A DNA stretch of 54,338 bases, taken from positions 1 to 54,338 of the IMG/VR virus record IMGVR_UViG_3300017963_000063; one strand, 5' to 3'. How positions within the stretch are numbered: the first letter of the stretch is position 1; every line of letters starts with the position of its first letter. The notes beneath the pieces were generated by a model. It saw nothing but the letters and a program-made list of their open reading frames with translations, had not been told where the DNA came from and did not search any database. Positions 16,294 through 32,980 of this stretch are shown one piece after another. Source of the DNA: a virus. The translations under genes and the position numbers were made by a program.

Positions 16294-19200
16294 ATGCCTG
16301 TTACCCGCAAACGCTCTGAAGGTGACGATGCGGTCGTAGACTACGACATTTCCGTCCACGACGCCGACCTGAACGTGACCCTAGAGCGATGGGCTCTGGC
16401 CGAGCCGCAGGCATCCGTAGTGTTGGGGCGCGATGTAACTGTGCTGGGAACCATGCGGCCCGATCGCGGCCGTCGGCCTATCGGCGTTGCGCCTGTCAGC
16501 GATGCCATCTGTTGGGCGGAGGAAAGCACCTTTAGCGGCCGGGCCTCGCGAGTGTTGATGGACCGCTGGCGCGATCCACGCCCGGACTGGGCTTCGGCCG
16601 ACGGGGAAGTGTCAAGCGCTGCGTATACCGTGGCCAACAACCGGATCACCAAAGTTGCGGGGTTTGGTCAATACAATTCAACCCGCGGGCGCAACGGTGA
16701 CAGATTCGTCGTGCATTTGCCCAAGGAGCGACGCGGGGCATACGCCATACAGACTGACGACATCGACCCGGACTACATCGTCGTAGATACCGGCTGGGAA
16801 GAGGACGTGTCAGGCATTAGCGGCTGGATCGAACGGCAGGCCGGTTATGCCAGCCCGACATGGGACCTAGCTGACGACGATTTGACTACGCGAGACGACA
16901 ACACGTTTTTGATGAAGTCGCCGATGGAGTACGAAGCTACTGGCCCCTGGCCGTCTAGCGCAGTTGGCGGCCTTCTGACGCTCAATGCGGACAACCGAGT
17001 GCAGGAGTCGTCGTGGGCACTAGTGGAAAGCCGCTATTCGACTGTCAATGCGAACGACACGTTGATTCTATCGGCAGCGCTGGTCTACGCCAACACCCTG
17101 ACCTCTGAAGACAAGTTTCAGCTGGCGTACACGCAGTTTTACGACAAGCGTGGAATCTGGATGGGGGACGGGCGGCGCTTTTGGCTGCTACAGAACGGGG
17201 TGTACTACCTTTACATAGACCTGGGCAGTGACGACCTTCTGGGGCTCAGGTGGTCTCACCACCAGATTTCTCCGAACCTCATCATGTTTGTGAATCCGTC
17301 CCAGCCTGGCCGGGTTCTGCGGCTTGACGCCTCGCCACTAGCGGATGGGGAAGTGAGCGGCGACGAGACTTTGTGCGGCATGATCCCGCCGGTCAAGCCG
17401 GGCACCAAGAACGACCCGCAGACGCAAGACCGCGAATGGTTGATGGCCATCGTGGCGGCCGGTGGGTCCGTGCCCGATGGCACGTACAGCGTGCAGGTCC
17501 GGGCGGTCAATTACACGGACTTCGGGGAATCGCAGTTTGTCAGCGTCTACAGAGATACTGACACAGAGAGAGAAGAAACCACTATTACTGCGACCGGCGG
17601 CGGTACGGATGCAATAGCCGTCTACAACTATCCGGCCGAGTCACTGTCCAACCAACCGCTTGCCGGACCGCCTCAACACAGGCGCTGGACTCACATGGAG
17701 GTCTGGCGGGCCGATGACGCCGACGGCGTGTACTACCTGGAGGCCGCCATTGATCTTCCGCGTGTCGGCCAGGGTTTAGGCTGCGAAGATGTGCTTGACT
17801 ACGCAGGCAATGGAGCAGGCGTAAATGCTACTGGCGGTTCGCATTTGGTTCAAAAGACGCCCACCAACACGACAAGCGGGTATCCGTGCATTCTGTCTGC
17901 CGAGGAGTTGCAAGGGCGCACGGCACGCACAGAGTCCGATGTGCTGGCTGGCGGGCTTCCGCCGGTGTGCCAGAAGGTGGCATCAATACAGGGCATCACC
18001 GTGTGCGCGGGGCGCGCCACCGAAGACGTGTCGCCCGGCATTGCCGAAAGTCGCCAGCACTTCATGTATACCAACAGTACACAGTACACTCCCAGCGCTA
18101 CCGAGAATTCGTCCTTGCTGGACTGGCTGACCGATGACGCTGGTGGCGTCGGCCAGGCTTATGCGTTCCAAAAGGGTGACATCGTTGAAATCGTCGAGGG
18201 CGGGCAGCTACCGGCAGGCAGTGGCCCCGGCGCGATCGCGCCGGGCTCTAGGGCGACAGTTCATGCCGAAATGGCGGGGAGTAACCAAGTCACATTAAAA
18301 GGGACATACCCGCTGGGCGAAGTGTCGTTTTCGCACGCTCGCTACTGCCTGGTTCGCCAATATGACATTAACTATTCGACGGTGCAGGCAGATCACGAGG
18401 TGTCCTATAGCCGAACGGACAAGTTTGCGCCGGAGTCGTTTCCGGCTCGCGTGCTTAGCATGGACGCCCGCGGCGACACGTTTAAGAACATGGTGCTGGT
18501 CGGCAACTACGCTGTCGTCATTATGGAGCAAGGCGTCTACCTGGTTTTTGTGAGCGGTTCCGCCCTTGACCACGAGGTCATTAGCGACGTGGGCGACGGC
18601 ACGCCGTGGGGCGATTCCGTAGCCACGCTTCCAAACTCTGTGGTGTGGGCTACCTCTCGCGGACCGCGCATTTTGACCGTCAACAAGGAGCCGAACGACG
18701 TTGGCCAGCGCGGCCAGCTGTCCTACCTGGACTCAGCCGGACGGATGGATGACTGGTTCCGCGAGGCTGCCGAGAATGGCTACGACATTGACACCGGGGT
18801 CGACACTGCGAACCACTGCGTGAGGTTCCGCCGCAAGATCAGCGACAACGAGTTTCAGGTGGCCCAGTACAGCTATCGGTATGATCGCTGGACGCTGCTC
18901 GACGACGACAATGGCGTGGCCTACGTCCGCAGCGTAAATGCAACCGGCGAGGAGGGCGGGCTGCCTCGGCTCTACAGCGTAACCAAGGAAGGAAGCGTGT
19001 TCCTGGTCAATGCCGATGGCGATGAGTGGCCGTACACGGCAGACCAGTGCAGTGGCCAACTCAGCAGTCTTGACAAATGCGGGCCTGGGTTCATGCAGTC
19101 GGCGGGACGGTTCACGCCGGACATGCTTGGTGACGTGATTCGCTTTTACGGCCCGGACGGCAGCGATGAGGCGCGGATAATTCGGTCGGCAACCGTAGAC

Positions 19201-19623
19201 CGGCTGGAGTTTGACGACGTTGACGGATTGTGCGAGTTGTCGATTTACACCGTCGGGGCTACGCGATTCAAGATCAGATTCGCTCCGTACATCGGCCCAT
19301 CCCGCAACGAGCTGAAGATACTAAGGGGTGTCTCGGCACGGATCGTCCCAGGGGACCGGGAGAACGCCGGGTATCCCACCATCGCAATCGGGGTTTACGA
19401 GGACTTCAACGACCCTGTAACCGAGGAGCCAGTGCAGGTATTCCGGGACGACCAGGAAGAGTTCACCACATCCGGCCGGATTGTGGACTTGGAGGCTGGC
19501 GGGCATGCGCTGGAATTAGGCATCGAAAACTTCGCCCCTCGGGTAGATTTTCGGGTACAATCGCTGGTAGCTACGATTATCGACCGTGGCACCGAGCAGA
19601 TAGACGCAGCGGAGGACGAGTGA
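16294..19623 (+). CDS. Large tail tubular / nozzle-like protein
   Basis: 1109 residues, mostly beta strands. The region about 720-880 reads like the propeller repeats of podoviral tail nozzle proteins (P22 gp10 / T7 gp12 type): 'FKNMVLVGNYAVVIMEQGVY', 'VSGSALDHEVISDVGDGTPW' and 'NSVVWATSRGPRILTVNK' form successive blades of the kind 'voyeur strand - turn - strand'. No membrane segments or signal. It follows the adaptor gene and overlaps the next gene by one base (TGATG). I regard the nozzle call as likely but not proven. Confidence 0.6.
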   Translation: MPVTRKRSEGDDAVVDYDISVHDADLNVTLERWALAEPQASVVLGRDVTVLGTMRPDRGRRPIGVAPVSDAICWAEESTFSGRASRVLMDRWRDPRPDWASADGEVSSAAYTVANNRITKVAGFGQYNSTRGRNGDRFVVHLPKERRGAYAIQTDDIDPDYIVVDTGWEEDVSGISGWIERQAGYASPTWDLADDDLTTRDDNTFLMKSPMEYEATGPWPSSAVGGLLTLNADNRVQESSWALVESRYSTVNANDTLILSAALVYANTLTSEDKFQLAYTQFYDKRGIWMGDGRRFWLLQNGVYYLYIDLGSDDLLGLRWSHHQISPNLIMFVNPSQPGRVLRLDASPLADGEVSGDETLCGMIPPVKPGTKNDPQTQDREWLMAIVAAGGSVPDGTYSVQVRAVNYTDFGESQFVSVYRDTDTEREETTITATGGGTDAIAVYNYPAESLSNQPLAGPPQHRRWTHMEVWRADDADGVYYLEAAIDLPRVGQGLGCEDVLDYAGNGAGVNATGGSHLVQKTPTNTTSGYPCILSAEELQGRTARTESDVLAGGLPPVCQKVASIQGITVCAGRATEDVSPGIAESRQHFMYTNSTQYTPSATENSSLLDWLTDDAGGVGQAYAFQKGDIVEIVEGGQLPAGSGPGAIAPGSRATVHAEMAGSNQVTLKGTYPLGEVSFSHARYCLVRQYDINYSTVQADHEVSYSRTDKFAPESFPARVLSMDARGDTFKNMVLVGNYAVVIMEQGVYLVFVSGSALDHEVISDVGDGTPWGDSVATLPNSVVWATSRGPRILTVNKEPNDVGQRGQLSYLDSAGRMDDWFREAAENGYDIDTGVDTANHCVRFRRKISDNEFQVAQYSYRYDRWTLLDDDNGVAYVRSVNATGEEGGLPRLYSVTKEGSVFLVNADGDEWPYTADQCSGQLSSLDKCGPGFMQSAGRFTPDMLGDVIRFYGPDGSDEARIIRSATVDRLEFDDVDGLCELSIYTVGATRFKIRFAPYIGPSRNELKILRGVSARIVPGDRENAGYPTIAIGVYEDFNDPVTEEPVQVFRDDQEEFTTSGRIVDLEAGGHALELGIENFAPRVDFRVQSLVATIIDRGTEQIDAAEDE

Positions 19624-21617
19624 TGGGCGCCGCACAGGCAATTCTAGGGCAGTCAGGAATCACGCTTCTCGGCGACCTCATTCGGGGCTTTCTCGGCTGG
19701 CAAGCCGTACAGCAGGGGCGTGAGGACTCTCGGTCCGCCCTGAACATCATCCGTCAGAATCGGGACATGCTGGAGGACTACATTGTCGGCCAGACCGGCG
19801 GGCTGTTCGGCGAAATCCCGCTGTTCTATGGCGACGTGCCCCTAAATCCGGCCGCGACCGCACTGGGGCCATCGCCGTTTGTCGAGCCGGACCTTACGCC
19901 CGGCGAGCGATTAAACCTGGCGCCCGGCCAGCAAGGCCAGCAATTCGATCCGAGCACGCCCACCTTGCTGACTCGGGATGGCGAGCCACTGCCTTCTCGC
20001 GACGACATCTTGGACTTGTCCAAGATTTTCAATGTTGAGGACATGCTCACGCCTGGAGAGGCGTTTTCGGACTTCGTGCCGGGCCCATTTGAGTTACCAG
20101 ACCTGAACCCATACTTGGGCGGCAACCAAGGCGCACGCTTGGGCATCTCGCCGACCGCCGGGAACGTGCCGGGCGTGGTCAATGTGGATGCAGAGGGCAA
20201 CCCCATTGACACTTCAAAGCCGATTGACCTTAACCAGTTCACCTACGACCCCAGCGATTTAGAGGAGATCGCCGGCAATGTCGGCGCGGCATTTGAGGGT
20301 ATCGCTGGCGGGTTGCAGGGGCGGCGCTTGGCGCCGGGCACCTTGTTCGGTCAGGTAGACTTTCCAGAGTACGAGGGCGAGGCGGAACTTGCGAAACTGC
20401 GAGGCGACATTGCCGTTGGCAATCGAGAGGCCACAGAGCTTGCCCGCCAGCAGGTTGCCGCCCGTGCGTTGGGAGCCGGCCAACCGCTTTTGGCCGCCCA
20501 GAGTTCGCAGGACCTAGCCTTGCGGGACATTCAGGATACCGGACGCACGTTGGCCCGCAACGCCGCCGCCGACGTGGAACAGAAGGTTCTTGAGAACGAG
20601 CGGGCGCGGGCATCGATGCAGTTCGCCGGCGCGGCTACCGAGGCCGACATCAACCGGGCGCTGGACCTTGCGGCGTCTAATCTGCGGGGCACGGGGGCGA
20701 GTACGGCAGCCCACCTTTTGAGTAGTGGCGAATCGTTGGAGGCGGCTAACCTTGGTTTGCTGTCGGGGCTAGAGCAGTTCAACCTACAGTACCCGATGGC
20801 GCTACAAGGTTTATTGGACGACCGGGAGCTACAGCAGTTTTTGGCGAACTTGAGCGCCGGGCAAGCGTCGGCCGGAACTGCCGCACAGGACATCGGAATC
20901 CAGCAGGGCTCGGCGGCCAACACGCTGGCCGCGCTCGGCAACTTCATGTTGCAGCCTAACCTGTCGTTGCTACAGGGTATAGCCGGCCTGGGCACTACCG
21001 CCGCCGGCATTCAGCAGAACTTCCCGGTGTTTATGCCGACCACGAACTTTGACAGTACGGCCATCGACGCTTGGAACGCGGCGCGGCTGGCCAATGCGGG
21101 ACAGCCCAAAGATTCGTTCGGTGTGTCCGTGTTGGGTACTGGGTTCAACACGGGTTGCATCGACGGCATGGGCTGGGTGCAATTGGCGGGCGGGAAGATC
21201 GTCATGCTGATGAACGTAGAGGTCGGCGATGAGGTGGTGACGCCCAGCGGCGAAACGAGGAAGGTACTTTACAAGGATTACGGGACCAGCCCGATTCGCG
21301 ATCAGCACGTTCAGATCATTACCAACCTCGGTCCCATCGTGTGTACCCGCGATCACCGTATCGGCGGGTTCCTGGCGGACGAATGGCTGCCGGGCGAAAA
21401 AATTGAGATGGCTGGGGGCATCCGGGCGGTGGTTCTGCTGCTACGTGAGCACCCTTACGTGGTGTCTGGCGACCTGTACGTTGAAGGCAACGCGGACTAC
21501 ATCGTCAATGGGTTTGTGGTTGCGTCGAATATCGGGCGCAACATAGAATCGGTGGGTGGCTTGAGTCGCTATCTTGAACTGAAGGCCGCTCACGAAGCCA
21601 GAATACCGGAGGATTGA
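19623..21617 (+). CDS. Internal/tail virion protein with C-terminal Hint domain
   Basis: 664 residues. Residues 1-510 form a helical, Gly/Ala/Gln-rich virion-type protein. Cys512 opens a Hint (hedgehog/intein) domain: block A-like 'CIDG...GD536EVVTPSGE', block B 'T575-R-D-H578' with the conserved TxxH, and a block-G-like end 'NGFVVASN636'. The penultimate His of inteins is missing (SN, not HN) and only ~28 residues follow. Cys512 and TxxH would permit an N-S acyl shift, so cleavage or ligation of the N-terminal part is possible; classical splicing is unlikely. The motif 'FDPSTPTLLTRDG' at residue ~108 recurs in 22079-22657. Domain call from motifs; function inferred. Confidence 0.65.
   Translation: MGAAQAILGQSGITLLGDLIRGFLGWQAVQQGREDSRSALNIIRQNRDMLEDYIVGQTGGLFGEIPLFYGDVPLNPAATALGPSPFVEPDLTPGERLNLAPGQQGQQFDPSTPTLLTRDGEPLPSRDDILDLSKIFNVEDMLTPGEAFSDFVPGPFELPDLNPYLGGNQGARLGISPTAGNVPGVVNVDAEGNPIDTSKPIDLNQFTYDPSDLEEIAGNVGAAFEGIAGGLQGRRLAPGTLFGQVDFPEYEGEAELAKLRGDIAVGNREATELARQQVAARALGAGQPLLAAQSSQDLALRDIQDTGRTLARNAAADVEQKVLENERARASMQFAGAATEADINRALDLAASNLRGTGASTAAHLLSSGESLEAANLGLLSGLEQFNLQYPMALQGLLDDRELQQFLANLSAGQASAGTAAQDIGIQQGSAANTLAALGNFMLQPNLSLLQGIAGLGTTAAGIQQNFPVFMPTTNFDSTAIDAWNAARLANAGQPKDSFGVSVLGTGFNTGCIDGMGWVQLAGGKIVMLMNVEVGDEVVTPSGETRKVLYKDYGTSPIRDQHVQIITNLGPIVCTRDHRIGGFLADEWLPGEKIEMAGGIRAVVLLLREHPYVVSGDLYVEGNADYIVNGFVVASNIGRNIESVGGLSRYLELKAAHEARIPED
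19941..19988 (+). repeat. 48-bp internal repeat, copy 1
   Basis: This stretch matches 22394-22441 at 45 of 48 bases, in frame in both genes, and encodes FDPSTPTLLTRDG followed by E or K and P. The three differences are scattered. In both proteins it starts near residue 106-107, suggesting that the two genes exchanged or share a functional peptide. Confidence 0.8.
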
Positions 21618-29250: not shown

Positions 29251-30014
29251 TGGCTACGCGGACGATTACCAAGGCCGAAGGCGTGGCGGACGTGAACAGT
29301 TGGGAATACGCCTTCAAGAACCAGGCGGACGGCGACGTGTTCAACGTCACAGCCGATCTAACATTTGTCACCGACAACCTTGCCAACGGCAAGGGCAGCA
29401 TCATGTGGGAGTTGAACACCAACACCACGATCCAAACCGATGGCCCCCTGCGTGTCGTCGACTTTGGTGGCATGTACTACTTACGCAGCAACGGCCAGGC
29501 TGCCGGCACGACCATTACCATCGACGACCTGCACCTCAAGAATGGCGAACCCGGCAAGGATTTGGTTGTCTGGATAACTAATAGCGGCGCGATCACGGCC
29601 ACTATGACGGATTGCATTGTCTCGGGCGCCGATCAGATCGGAATTCAGGTTACCCAGCAACTTTCCACAAACCACGCCTTGTCGGTTGCGTTGACGCGGG
29701 TGACGAGTTCTGGCAATGGGTACAACGGGCTGGCGGTTACTAACAGCGAATCAGTCAACGCCGTCGATGCCGTGGTAGCATGTACCGACTGCAACTTCAC
29801 GGGCAACGGATATAGCGGCATAATTGCCGCCCAGGAGCATGGGGTCTATATAAGCCACGATGGTTCTGCCGGCAAAATCATCTTTTCAGCATCCGGCGGG
29901 CGCATCGCAGGCAATAAGGGCGACCCGATTTATACTGACGCAGGTAGCGGAACGATTGAGATACCGACGTTCTCCGGCGTCAAGATCAACGATGTCCGTC
30001 AGGTCACTATGTGA
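29250..30014 (+). CDS. Right-handed beta-helix protein, probable tailspike
   Basis: 254 residues. From about residue 70 the sequence follows the short-repeat rhythm of a parallel beta-helix: 'TTITIDDLHLKNGEPGK', 'AITATMTDCIVSGADQIGIQ', 'LSVALTRVTSSGNGYNGLAV', 'VACTDCNFTGNGYSGIIA' and a final capped strand. Pectate-lyase-like helices of this kind form receptor-binding or polysaccharide-degrading tailspikes. The protein is short for a spike, so it could be a stub or a partner of the preceding gene. No catalytic residues can be assigned. It overlaps the following gene out of frame by 23 bases. Confidence 0.65.
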   Translation: MATRTITKAEGVADVNSWEYAFKNQADGDVFNVTADLTFVTDNLANGKGSIMWELNTNTTIQTDGPLRVVDFGGMYYLRSNGQAAGTTITIDDLHLKNGEPGKDLVVWITNSGAITATMTDCIVSGADQIGIQVTQQLSTNHALSVALTRVTSSGNGYNGLAVTNSESVNAVDAVVACTDCNFTGNGYSGIIAAQEHGVYISHDGSAGKIIFSASGGRIAGNKGDPIYTDAGSGTIEIPTFSGVKINDVRQVTM

Positions 30015-30273
30015 CGGGTGCGGAGCGTGCTGTCTGCATGCGGGCGACCCCCCTTTTGGGCACAATGATTGGCTGCGCGTGCCGCGGGCTGTGCAAAACG
30101 AATTGAACGCAATGAGGCGGGATGCCCCGCCAGGCCAGGTCAACAACCCCTGTCACTGGTTACAGCCGGATGGTGGATGCCAGCACCACGAGCACCGCCC
30201 TGATCTGTGCCGCGAGTTTGAGGTCGGGGGTGCTGCCTGCCTTAAATGCCGCTGGGAACACGGCAGCCACTAG
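29992..30273 (+). CDS. YkgJ-type CxxCxxCC zinc/iron-binding protein
   Basis: 93 residues. The signature 'CDGCGACC' near the start and a later 'CREF...CLKCR' agree with the Pfam CxxCxxCC (YkgJ) family of small metal-chelating proteins, usually ~85-120 residues. The role of the family is not established. The start overlaps the spike gene in another frame by 23 bases. It is the last gene before the promoter-containing gap at 30274-30364. Confidence 0.65.
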   Translation: MSVRSLCDGCGACCLHAGDPPFGHNDWLRVPRAVQNELNAMRRDAPPGQVNNPCHWLQPDGGCQHHEHRPDLCREFEVGGAACLKCRWEHGSH

Positions 30274-30851: not shown

Positions 30852-31176
30852 TCTTCCAGACCTACCGCTAGACCCGCCGGAGGAGCGCCCCATCAAGTGG
30901 CCCGGAGAACGCGAGCAGCTGTGCGACCAGTGCGGGAACGGCGAAGCGCTGCGAGCCTGCTACAAGTGCGGCATGTTCTGCTGCCTGGAGTGCCTGAGCG
31001 AGGGCGAGCTTCATTTGTGCCGCGACTGCGAGGGGCTGACGGGGCATACGCTCATAGCATCGCTCCTGGCTGCACGGGACAGGGAGTTTCGGCAGGGTGG
31101 TGCGTTGACCGCGACCGTCGTGGATCGCGTGTTTGCTGGTTGGGAGAAGGACGATGCTGGCGAAGGCCGAGTATGA
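30844..31176 (+). CDS. B-box/treble-clef-like zinc protein
   Basis: 110 residues from ATG 30844. Eight cysteines in the arrangement C-x2-C-x9-C-x2-C-x4-C-x2-C-...-C-x2-C around residues 27-62 (CDQC, CYKC, CLEC, CRDC) suggest two zinc sites of a B-box or similar treble-clef finger. The C-terminal 45 residues are helical. It overlaps the following gene. Possible protein- or nucleic-acid-binding adaptor; role unknown. Confidence 0.55.
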   Translation: MPDLPDLPLDPPEERPIKWPGEREQLCDQCGNGEALRACYKCGMFCCLECLSEGELHLCRDCEGLTGHTLIASLLAARDREFRQGGALTATVVDRVFAGWEKDDAGEGRV

Positions 31177-31633
31177 CGCAATCGTAGACGCCGCCGAGCG
31201 TGCTGACGCGTGCAGCGAGGCTATTGCCTGGGCGCGTAAGCGGCAGCGCACCGTGGCGGAACTGTCGCCCGAGTGGGCGTACTGGCTGCGCCGCTTCTGT
31301 TCGGACCTGCCGGAAGAGGTTAAGCGCGCGGCCGAGGCCAAGGCGCTGACCGAGCCAGAGTGGGCGTACTGGCTGCGCTGCTTCTGTTCGGACCTGCCGG
31401 AAGGGGTCAAGCGCGCAGCCGAGGCTAAGGCGCTGACCGAGCCAGAGTGGGCCTGCTGGCTGCGCCGCTCCTGTTCGGACCTGCCGGAAGAGGTTAAGCG
31501 CGCAGCCGAGGCTAAGGCGCTGACCAAGCCGAAGTGGGCGTACTTGCTGCGCCGCTCCTGTTCGGGCCTGCCGGAAGAGGTCAAGCGCGCGGCCGAGGCC
31601 GAACACGCCGCCCTCGCGCCGGAGGCTGAGTGA
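31154..31633 (+). CDS. Protein of tandem 29-residue helical repeats
   Basis: 159 residues. After ~39 residues come three complete near-identical 29-residue units (E/K-WAYWLR..CSDLPEEVKRAAE pattern ending AKALTEP) and a partial fourth. Each unit predicts two short helices joined by SDLPEE, which would stack as an alpha-solenoid. Start chosen at ATG 31154, with GGAG upstream; 31133 is an alternative. The high identity between units points to recent expansion by slippage or recombination. Protein binding is the usual role of such folds; the partner is unknown. Confidence 0.6.
   Translation: MLAKAEYDAIVDAAERADACSEAIAWARKRQRTVAELSPEWAYWLRRFCSDLPEEVKRAAEAKALTEPEWAYWLRCFCSDLPEGVKRAAEAKALTEPEWACWLRRSCSDLPEEVKRAAEAKALTKPKWAYLLRRSCSGLPEEVKRAAEAEHAALAPEAE
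31271..31602 (+). repeat. 87-bp tandem repeats, 3.8 copies
   Basis: Units begin at 31271, 31358, 31445 and 31532. The first three are complete; the fourth diverges after about 70 bases. The unit length is a multiple of three and keeps the reading frame of the gene at 31154-31633. Copy number could vary between related phages. Confidence 0.85.
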
Positions 31634-31927: not shown

Positions 31928-32980
31928 ATGAATGAGTTGGCACTATTTACAGGCGTTGGTGGTGGACTTCTCGGAACCCGACTTCTCGGCTGGCGATGCG
32001 TCTGCGCCGTGGAAATCGAACCGTACTGCCGGGAAGTCCTCCTGCGGCGCCAGCGGGACGGTATGCTTGACCTGTTTCCGATCTGGGACGACATCCGAAC
32101 CTTCGACGGCAGACCCTGGCGTGGCCTCGTGGATATCGTCACTGGCGGCTTCCCGTGCCAGCCGTTCAGCGTTGCAGGCCAGCGACGTGGCGAAGATGAC
32201 GAACGCAATATGTGGCCCGAAACCATCCGAGTCATTCGCGAAGTGGGACCGCGATTCGCGCTGCTGGAGAACGTACCAGGGCTGCTTGTTCACCCGTACT
32301 TTGGAACCATACTCGGAGACCTGGCCGAGAGCGGGTATCGCGTTCGATGGGATTGTATCCCTGCGTCAGCCGTTGGCGCCCCGCACATCAGGGACCGTCT
32401 GTTCATACTCGCCCGATGGAGCGGAGGTGCCGCCAGCGCCGAGTTCGGAAGTGTACTGGCCAACCCCCGACGCGACGGGCAGCAACACGCTGGAGAACCG
32501 GCACTGCCACGACAGGATACGCCCGACGCTGGGGAAGGCTGCGAGGATGTGGCCAACGCCGCGAGCTCGGGATGCAGGAGGAGCGCTTGCCGGCAGCAAG
32601 GCCACGATAAACGAGGTGGGCCGAATGGTCCGTCCAAGCGGGCAGGACTTCAGCGTGCCGTTGTGCGAAGCGGTGAAGATGTGGCCGACCCCAACGAGCG
32701 GGGACGGGCTGGCAACGGCTGTCTCGCGCCTCCTCCCGACGATGACGGCGCGAGACAGCCGAACGATCAAGGGCAACGTGCCACCGCCGAACCATCAGGG
32801 CGGGGTATCGTTGACGCAGACAATCGCCTCTCCGCAGCAGAGTGGTGGCCTGAACCCGCCGTGGGTCGAGTGGCTGATGGGGTTCCCCATCGGGTGGACC
32901 GACTTAAGGGACTTGGCAATGCCCAGGTTCCAGCAGTGGTTAGAGCAGTTTGGGAACTGATGGGCAACGTCCGACAATAG
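31928..32980 (+). CDS. C5-cytosine DNA methyltransferase
   Basis: 350 residues with the ordered motifs of the Dcm family: motif I 'LALFTGVGGG' (residues ~4-13), motif IV with catalytic Cys77 in 'GGFPCQPFS', motif VI 'ENV' (114-116), motif VIII-like 'GAPHIRDRLFIL', and motif X 'GLGNAQVPAV' near the C-terminus. Between them (about 165-300) is a variable target-recognition region with three 'V-A-N/D-P/A' segments. It would methylate cytosine C5 in double-stranded DNA, probably protecting phage DNA. Its frame is open from end to end; a second frame is open over almost the same DNA (31932-32960). Confidence 0.9.
   Translation: MNELALFTGVGGGLLGTRLLGWRCVCAVEIEPYCREVLLRRQRDGMLDLFPIWDDIRTFDGRPWRGLVDIVTGGFPCQPFSVAGQRRGEDDERNMWPETIRVIREVGPRFALLENVPGLLVHPYFGTILGDLAESGYRVRWDCIPASAVGAPHIRDRLFILARWSGGAASAEFGSVLANPRRDGQQHAGEPALPRQDTPDAGEGCEDVANAASSGCRRSACRQQGHDKRGGPNGPSKRAGLQRAVVRSGEDVADPNERGRAGNGCLAPPPDDDGARQPNDQGQRATAEPSGRGIVDADNRLSAAEWWPEPAVGRVADGVPHRVDRLKGLGNAQVPAVVRAVWELMGNVRQ
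31932..32960 (+). CDS. Second, overlapping frame inside the methyltransferase gene
   Basis: 342 codons open in the +1 frame, starting at an ATG four bases after the methyltransferase ATG (ATGAATG) and ending 20 bases before its stop. It is not random in character: it begins MSWHYLQ, has 'YSETWPRAGI' then 'PLAPRTSGT', three spaced WPTP words (VYWPTPDATG, MWPTPRARDA, MWPTPTSGDG), and ends 'LNPPWVEWLMGFPIGWTDL'. I recall these strings as a recurrent phage protein, often labelled methyltransferase. That could mean real dual coding or repeated mis-annotation of the same +1 frame. Expression is unproven. Confidence 0.45.
   Translation: MSWHYLQALVVDFSEPDFSAGDASAPWKSNRTAGKSSCGASGTVCLTCFRSGTTSEPSTADPGVASWISSLAASRASRSALQASDVAKMTNAICGPKPSESFAKWDRDSRCWRTYQGCLFTRTLEPYSETWPRAGIAFDGIVSLRQPLAPRTSGTVCSYSPDGAEVPPAPSSEVYWPTPDATGSNTLENRHCHDRIRPTLGKAARMWPTPRARDAGGALAGSKATINEVGRMVRPSGQDFSVPLCEAVKMWPTPTSGDGLATAVSRLLPTMTARDSRTIKGNVPPPNHQGGVSLTQTIASPQQSGGLNPPWVEWLMGFPIGWTDLRDLAMPRFQQWLEQFGN

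Follow-up and report, generated by a model that had tools for sequence, protein, structure and literature searches.

Long same-strand overlaps with selection acting on both products are considered rare among bacteria and DNA phages. In the methyltransferase M.EcoHK31I, the gene of the beta polypeptide is said to lie within the gene of the alpha polypeptide, in a different frame, and both polypeptides are reportedly needed in vitro. M.EcoHK31I (YGGCCR) is a C5 methyltransferase made of two polypeptides (Lee, Kam and Shaw 1995, cited in PMC3404938). Its larger subunit carries motifs I–VIII and X, motif IX is found on the smaller polypeptide, and the TRD has been assigned to the larger subunit, not to beta (PMC3404938). 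Another two-chain C5 methyltransferase, M.AquI (CYCGRG), is split in the variable region, and its small subunit holds motifs IX and X. Phage methylase genes can also conceal a further protein in a different frame, as described for ShiLan, where it is an out-of-frame HNH endonuclease (PMC11855218). Our search of a literature collection found no description of a phage two-frame arrangement of the kind reported below.

The window, by which we mean the whole stretch of 54,338 nucleotides that was analysed, is a virus contig of 54 kb that carries terminase and portal genes. It contains a 1-kb gene which very probably encodes, in overlapping frames, two proteins that make up a single C5-cytosine DNA methyltransferase. 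Selection acts on both frames, and each is kept open from end to end. In the enzyme that we propose, alpha would provide SAM binding and catalysis (motifs I–VIII) and a closing helix with motif X, with a long unconserved linker between the two; beta, started 4 nt downstream, would supply the WPTP region and motif IX. The tandem starts, served by one ribosome-binding region, would allow both chains to be translated; the chains would bind each other, and the complex would methylate phage DNA, presumably protecting it against host restriction. The WPTP region of beta is probably responsible for target recognition, as suggested by the pattern of selection and the hypervariable middle of the gene, and this differs from the assignment in PMC3404938.

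The two reading frames and their parts

The tandem start opens two long frames over the same DNA, as a first, sequence-only reading had pointed out (Table 1). The strings it listed are all present in the translations: PCQ, ENV and GLGNAQVPAV in frame 1, and MSWHYLQ, SETWPRAGI, three WPTP words and WVEWLMGFPIGWTDL in frame 2. The WPTP words had also been described as evenly spaced; their starts at beta residues 176, 207 and 251 are irregular. The proposed alignment of WPTP in frame 2 with VADP in frame 1 holds for the third word, which does lie over VADP, but not for the other two, which lie over LANP and VANA.

Table 1. Features of the double-coded methyltransferase gene, in window coordinates
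Feature	Position	Strand	Description
Tandem start ATGAATG	31928..31934	+	Alpha ATG at 31928, beta ATG at 31932; read from the sequence
Alpha ORF (frame 1), 350 aa	31928..32980	+	C5-cytosine DNA methyltransferase with motifs I–VIII and X, without motif IX
Beta ORF (frame 2, the +1 frame), 342 aa	31932..32960	+	WPTP-repeat region and motif IX; inside the alpha ORF
Alpha catalytic domain, codons 1-165	31928..32422	+	Frame-1 selection predominates; AlphaFold pLDDT mostly 87-97 (blocks of ten)
Beta conserved segment, SWxT...FSxTWPRSGMMRNG type	32253..32369	+	Over alpha motifs V–VIII; invariant columns in alignment A2
Alpha linker, codons 170-320	32435..32887	+	Predicted disordered, AlphaFold pLDDT mostly <50; DNA shared with the beta WPTP region
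Beta WPTP word 1, residues 176-179	32457..32468	+	From the translation; T and P nearly invariant
Beta WPTP word 2, residues 207-210	32550..32561	+	From the translation; nearly invariant
Beta WPTP word 3, residues 251-254	32682..32693	+	From the translation; nearly invariant
Motif IX, beta frame (LNPPWVEWLMGFPIGWT)	32850..32900	+	P309, V312, E313, W314 and M316 invariant
Motif X, alpha frame (GLGNAQVPAV)	32909..32938	+	G330 and V334 invariant; N331 and P335 nearly so

Alpha matched PF00145 with an E of 2.5e-35, over residues 4-162 only, and the match ends at position 160 of the 324 in the profile. The catalytic features of that family (motifs I–VIII, with PCQ and ENV) are all found in alpha. 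Motifs IX and X do not occur together on this chain, which has X and lacks IX. The AlphaFold model of alpha matches M.HhaI/M.HaeIII with an E of about 1e-13 over about 168 columns. Beta matched no family in Pfam or NCBIfam, and the search for a solved relative by sequence and by fold returned none; its structure model is of low confidence. Alpha falls into phrog_363 and beta into phrog_1008 (E 8.6e-34, residues 70-327). Both are labelled DNA methyltransferase, and the entries as returned are silent on being two frames of one gene.

Two stretches of the overlap may be singled out. Under the conserved segment of beta both frames are likely constrained: third-position change is lowered in alpha codons 113-140, and the low-confidence model of beta has strands at residues 103-144. 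In the DNA of the alpha linker, the changes seen in homologues hit position 1 of the alpha codons, not position 3.

Other features of the window were recorded in passing. Just upstream of the methyltransferase, at 31267-31600, an 87-bp tandem unit is repeated 3.8 times with 91% matches inside the ORF at 31133-31633, and it encodes a 29-residue repeat. A small Cys-rich ORF at 29860-30273 (CDGCGACC...CHWLQPDGGCQHHEHRPDLC...CLKC) has a metal-chelating look. The ORFs at 16294-19623 and 19230-21617, on the same strand, overlap by about 390 bases, possibly with a start set too far upstream.

Motif IX and the probable sharing of one enzyme

A motif IX was recognised in 284 loci. It was found in beta in 268 of these, was scored in alpha in 16, and occurred in both frames in none. 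Two of the 16 were set aside, one (L248) as a pattern error on inspection and the other (L208) as a one-base frame swap. The remaining 14 form one well-supported actinophage clade that is nested inside the beta type, and in this clade, where beta stops before motif IX, the motif has moved from beta into alpha. The middle region of these actinophage genes shows no frame-2-dominated change. Where a motif X was found, it belongs to alpha in nearly every locus, and beta is without it.

Single-frame methyltransferases were sought with a composite query built from the N-terminal part of alpha, the middle and motif IX of beta, and motif X. Most of its translated matches were again overlapping pairs. 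CheeseTouch was the one single-frame case that we looked at; it has motif IX in alpha, and its alpha matches PF00145 at positions 1-316 of 324, nearly full length. The composite sequence did not lengthen the Pfam match.

Because motif IX is in frame 2 and absent from frame 1, the two products resemble subunits of a single enzyme; such an enzyme, shared by two chains, would need one motif IX for each pair. It could be argued instead that beta is a real but independent protein, for example one that binds DNA or counters restriction, and that it occupies the gene together with alpha without being a subunit, and it is true that its N-terminal half and the WPTP region resemble no solved structure. 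However, beta has the very motif IX that alpha lacks, the motif is never in both frames, and alpha went undetected in only two of the 62 loci found in a survey with beta as the query. We consider an independent beta improbable, and the two-subunit methyltransferase remains the preferred reading.

Selection and open frames along the gene

The selected frame changes along the gene: it is frame 1 over motifs I–VIII, frame 2 over the middle and motif IX, and frame 1 again over motif X. This pattern is seen clearly in 35 Rhodobacterales orthologues with a mean identity of 0.895. Between 20 and 40% of the gene, change at alpha positions 1/2/3 is 0.017/0.010/0.157, a frame-1 pattern; between 60 and 80% it is 0.234/0.018/0.011, a frame-2 pattern, and the last fifth of the gene is constrained in both frames. 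The first reading had associated double coding with suppressed synonymous substitution in frame 1, and such suppression is indeed found: SN/SS is 0.04 and NN/NS 0.05 at 60-80% of the gene in these Rhodobacterales, where frame 1 is itself unconstrained (NS/SS 1.15), and SN/SS is 0.03 for motif IX in the window's own viral group.

The rates at alpha positions 1/2/3 in 25 close viral pairs, which are descriptive counts since the pairs share branches and are not independent trials, are 0.146/0.071/0.277 over motifs I–VIII, 0.439/0.282/0.293 in the middle region, 0.267/0.152/0.155 in motif IX, and 0.223/0.175/0.392 in motif X, where the third position is dominant again. In one such comparison, ABMM1 (L089) with L181, the middle region has 23/5/0 changes at the three positions. 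The middle is hypervariable and, across the whole viral set, could not be aligned between distant members for a site-wise frame test, which is usable there in close pairs only. The middle region of the window is without a close homologue, so selection on it is inferred from relatives.

Interruption of frame 2 in homologues is another matter that the first reading had raised. Many of the earlier loci had come to us via frame 2, and for this reason the survey was redone on loci picked by the alpha N-terminal domain alone. Chosen in this frame-2-blind manner, 148 of 156 loci keep beta (75/79 from bacterial genomes and 73/77 viral), and frame 2 is thus open in nearly all. A start codon at +4 is present in 64/77 viral and 59/79 genome loci of this survey; among the loci that have it, beta has no stop up to and including codon 61 in 63/64 and 59/59, respectively. 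Of 63 viral loci with the +4 start, 49 are preceded by an SD-like site, compared with 25% inside genes; the site is mostly 3-7 nt from the alpha start and hence 7-11 from the beta start. The window's own SD is weak. Other members of the family instead have ATGs in frame 2 that lie inside alpha, about 145-205 nt along it, and are led by an SD-like site. Over beta codons 2-165 the viral loci with a +4 start contain 2 stops, compared with 184 expected from synonymous shuffles; this part of beta is little conserved, yet it is kept free of stops. The middle of alpha has 0 stops where 148-217 are expected, a result that is partly built in, as alpha was defined as an open frame.

These observations bear on how many chains are made. 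The fact that both frames are fully open argues for two proteins over a frameshift fusion. A single polypeptide could in principle be produced by programmed frameshifting, reading motifs I–VIII in frame 1, the middle and motif IX in frame 2, and motif X in frame 1. Along the DNA the parts follow the order usual for a methyltransferase, and the selected frame does switch twice, as such a mechanism would have it. Two shifts would be needed, however, and the mechanism leaves unexplained why the hardly conserved beta codons 2-165 are stop-free, why alpha is open through the middle, and why there are a conserved +4 start and internal frame-2 ATGs led by SD-like sites. Programmed frameshifting as the sole route is disfavoured; we give it an even smaller chance than an independent beta, and continue with two separately translated subunits.

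Frame 2 was also compared with chance, using a null in which the codons of frame 1 are shuffled among synonyms, so that the alpha protein and its codon use are preserved. The sequence-only reading had held that frame 2 is not noise, and the comparison bears this out: in the window, frame 2 stays open for 342 codons, whereas the shuffles have a mean of 198 (p=0.007), and its frame 2 scores 285.8 bits with an HMM made from other loci, whereas the maximum in 300 shuffles was 128.2. Among 89 loci, the longest frame-2 run is beyond the shuffles at p<0.05 in 90%, compared with only 7% for frame 3. A frame-2 HMM trained on half of the loci gave 256.7 bits for the held-out half and 91.6 for alpha-preserving shuffles; in the reverse test, the C-terminal part of alpha gave 107.9 against 48.2 for beta-preserving shuffles. 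In both directions the scores lie above those of the shuffles, so that the conservation of either frame exceeds what its partner would enforce.

The view that the +1 frame is open merely from base composition and has been annotated by mistake has practically nothing left to recommend it: the window has 62% GC and a GC-rich locus (L010) is not unusual against its own shuffles, but loci at 45-50% GC have frame 2 open and frame 3 full of stops, selection on frame 2 is strong, its conservation is far above what frame 1 imposes, and the suppression of changes that are synonymous in frame 1 and nonsynonymous in frame 2 (SN/SS 0.03-0.04) refutes it. Of the two readings originally offered, true double coding or an open frame kept by composition, it is double coding that is supported.

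Distribution and comparison with known systems

The arrangement is kept in hundreds of phages and bacterial chromosomes, and most records list one of the two proteins. Both nested ORFs are annotated in Paenibacillus phage Bloom and Escherichia phage K1ind2. Alpha only is annotated in E. coli PT62, Salmonella phage S9-5 and Vibrio phage 1.003.O. Beta only, as a hypothetical protein with the methyltransferase frame left unannotated, is listed for Pseudomonas phage phPA-G (L270, 1442-2170) and virus Rctr197k (L268, 1026-1706).

Some members of the family have features of their own. In many Rhodobacterales chromosomes (L108-L168) the pair is closely conserved, reaches up to 393 codons and has both frames open over the whole length. 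In several mycobacteriophages (records H179-H186; L271) the methylase is annotated as two ORFs. In one of them, Mycobacterium phage Llama (L271, 920-1679), a one-base shift in mid-gene displaces both products at once, alpha passing from frame 1 into frame 2 and beta from frame 2 into frame 3, which may reflect decay, a shared indel or a frameshift site. In L208, a one-base shift near codon 195 joins the alpha catalytic domain to the WPTP/motif IX part of beta; the fused chain is without motif X, and the shift may be an assembly error.

Taken more broadly, we favour, though with less confidence than the reading of the gene as one two-subunit enzyme, an ancient and very common double-coded enzyme with two full-length subunits (about 240-390 codons) on the same strand, in which beta would recognise the target in trans and motif IX would be able to change frame, and which would be wide in phages and bacterial chromosomes with databases usually holding half of it. 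The overlap recurs across many lineages, is statistically testable and has a plausible enzyme function, and it offers a ready test bed for methods of overlapping-gene detection. There is a practical side to it as well. Many phage and bacterial methyltransferases are half annotated, and codon-optimised synthesis of the annotated frame alone would ruin the coding sequence of its partner subunit, a possible reason why some clones are inactive.

What is new here is the breadth, the length of the overlap and the missing annotation; the kind itself is known but obscure. The likeness to ShiLan goes no further than the presence of an additional, out-of-frame protein in a phage methylase gene: the HNH endonuclease, a homing insertion, sits in the third frame and is patchily distributed, whereas beta overlies the methylase itself in the +1 frame. 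M.AquI is likewise a two-chain enzyme, but motif X, which is on its small subunit together with motif IX, stays in alpha here, and the present two ORFs overlap over almost their whole length. The likeness to M.EcoHK31I goes further. The window alpha has motifs I–VIII and X without IX, motif IX is on the second chain, where it is strongly constrained, and beta is inside alpha, as is said of M.EcoHK31I. There are differences even so: the window beta comes close to alpha in length and has its start 4 nt further on, so the whole gene is read twice; motif IX has shifted into alpha in one phage clade of the present family; and selection puts the conserved middle in beta, whereas the TRD was given to the larger subunit in M.EcoHK31I (PMC3404938). 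The window pair is best read as an alpha/beta methyltransferase of the M.EcoHK31I type, a likeness drawn from motif layout.
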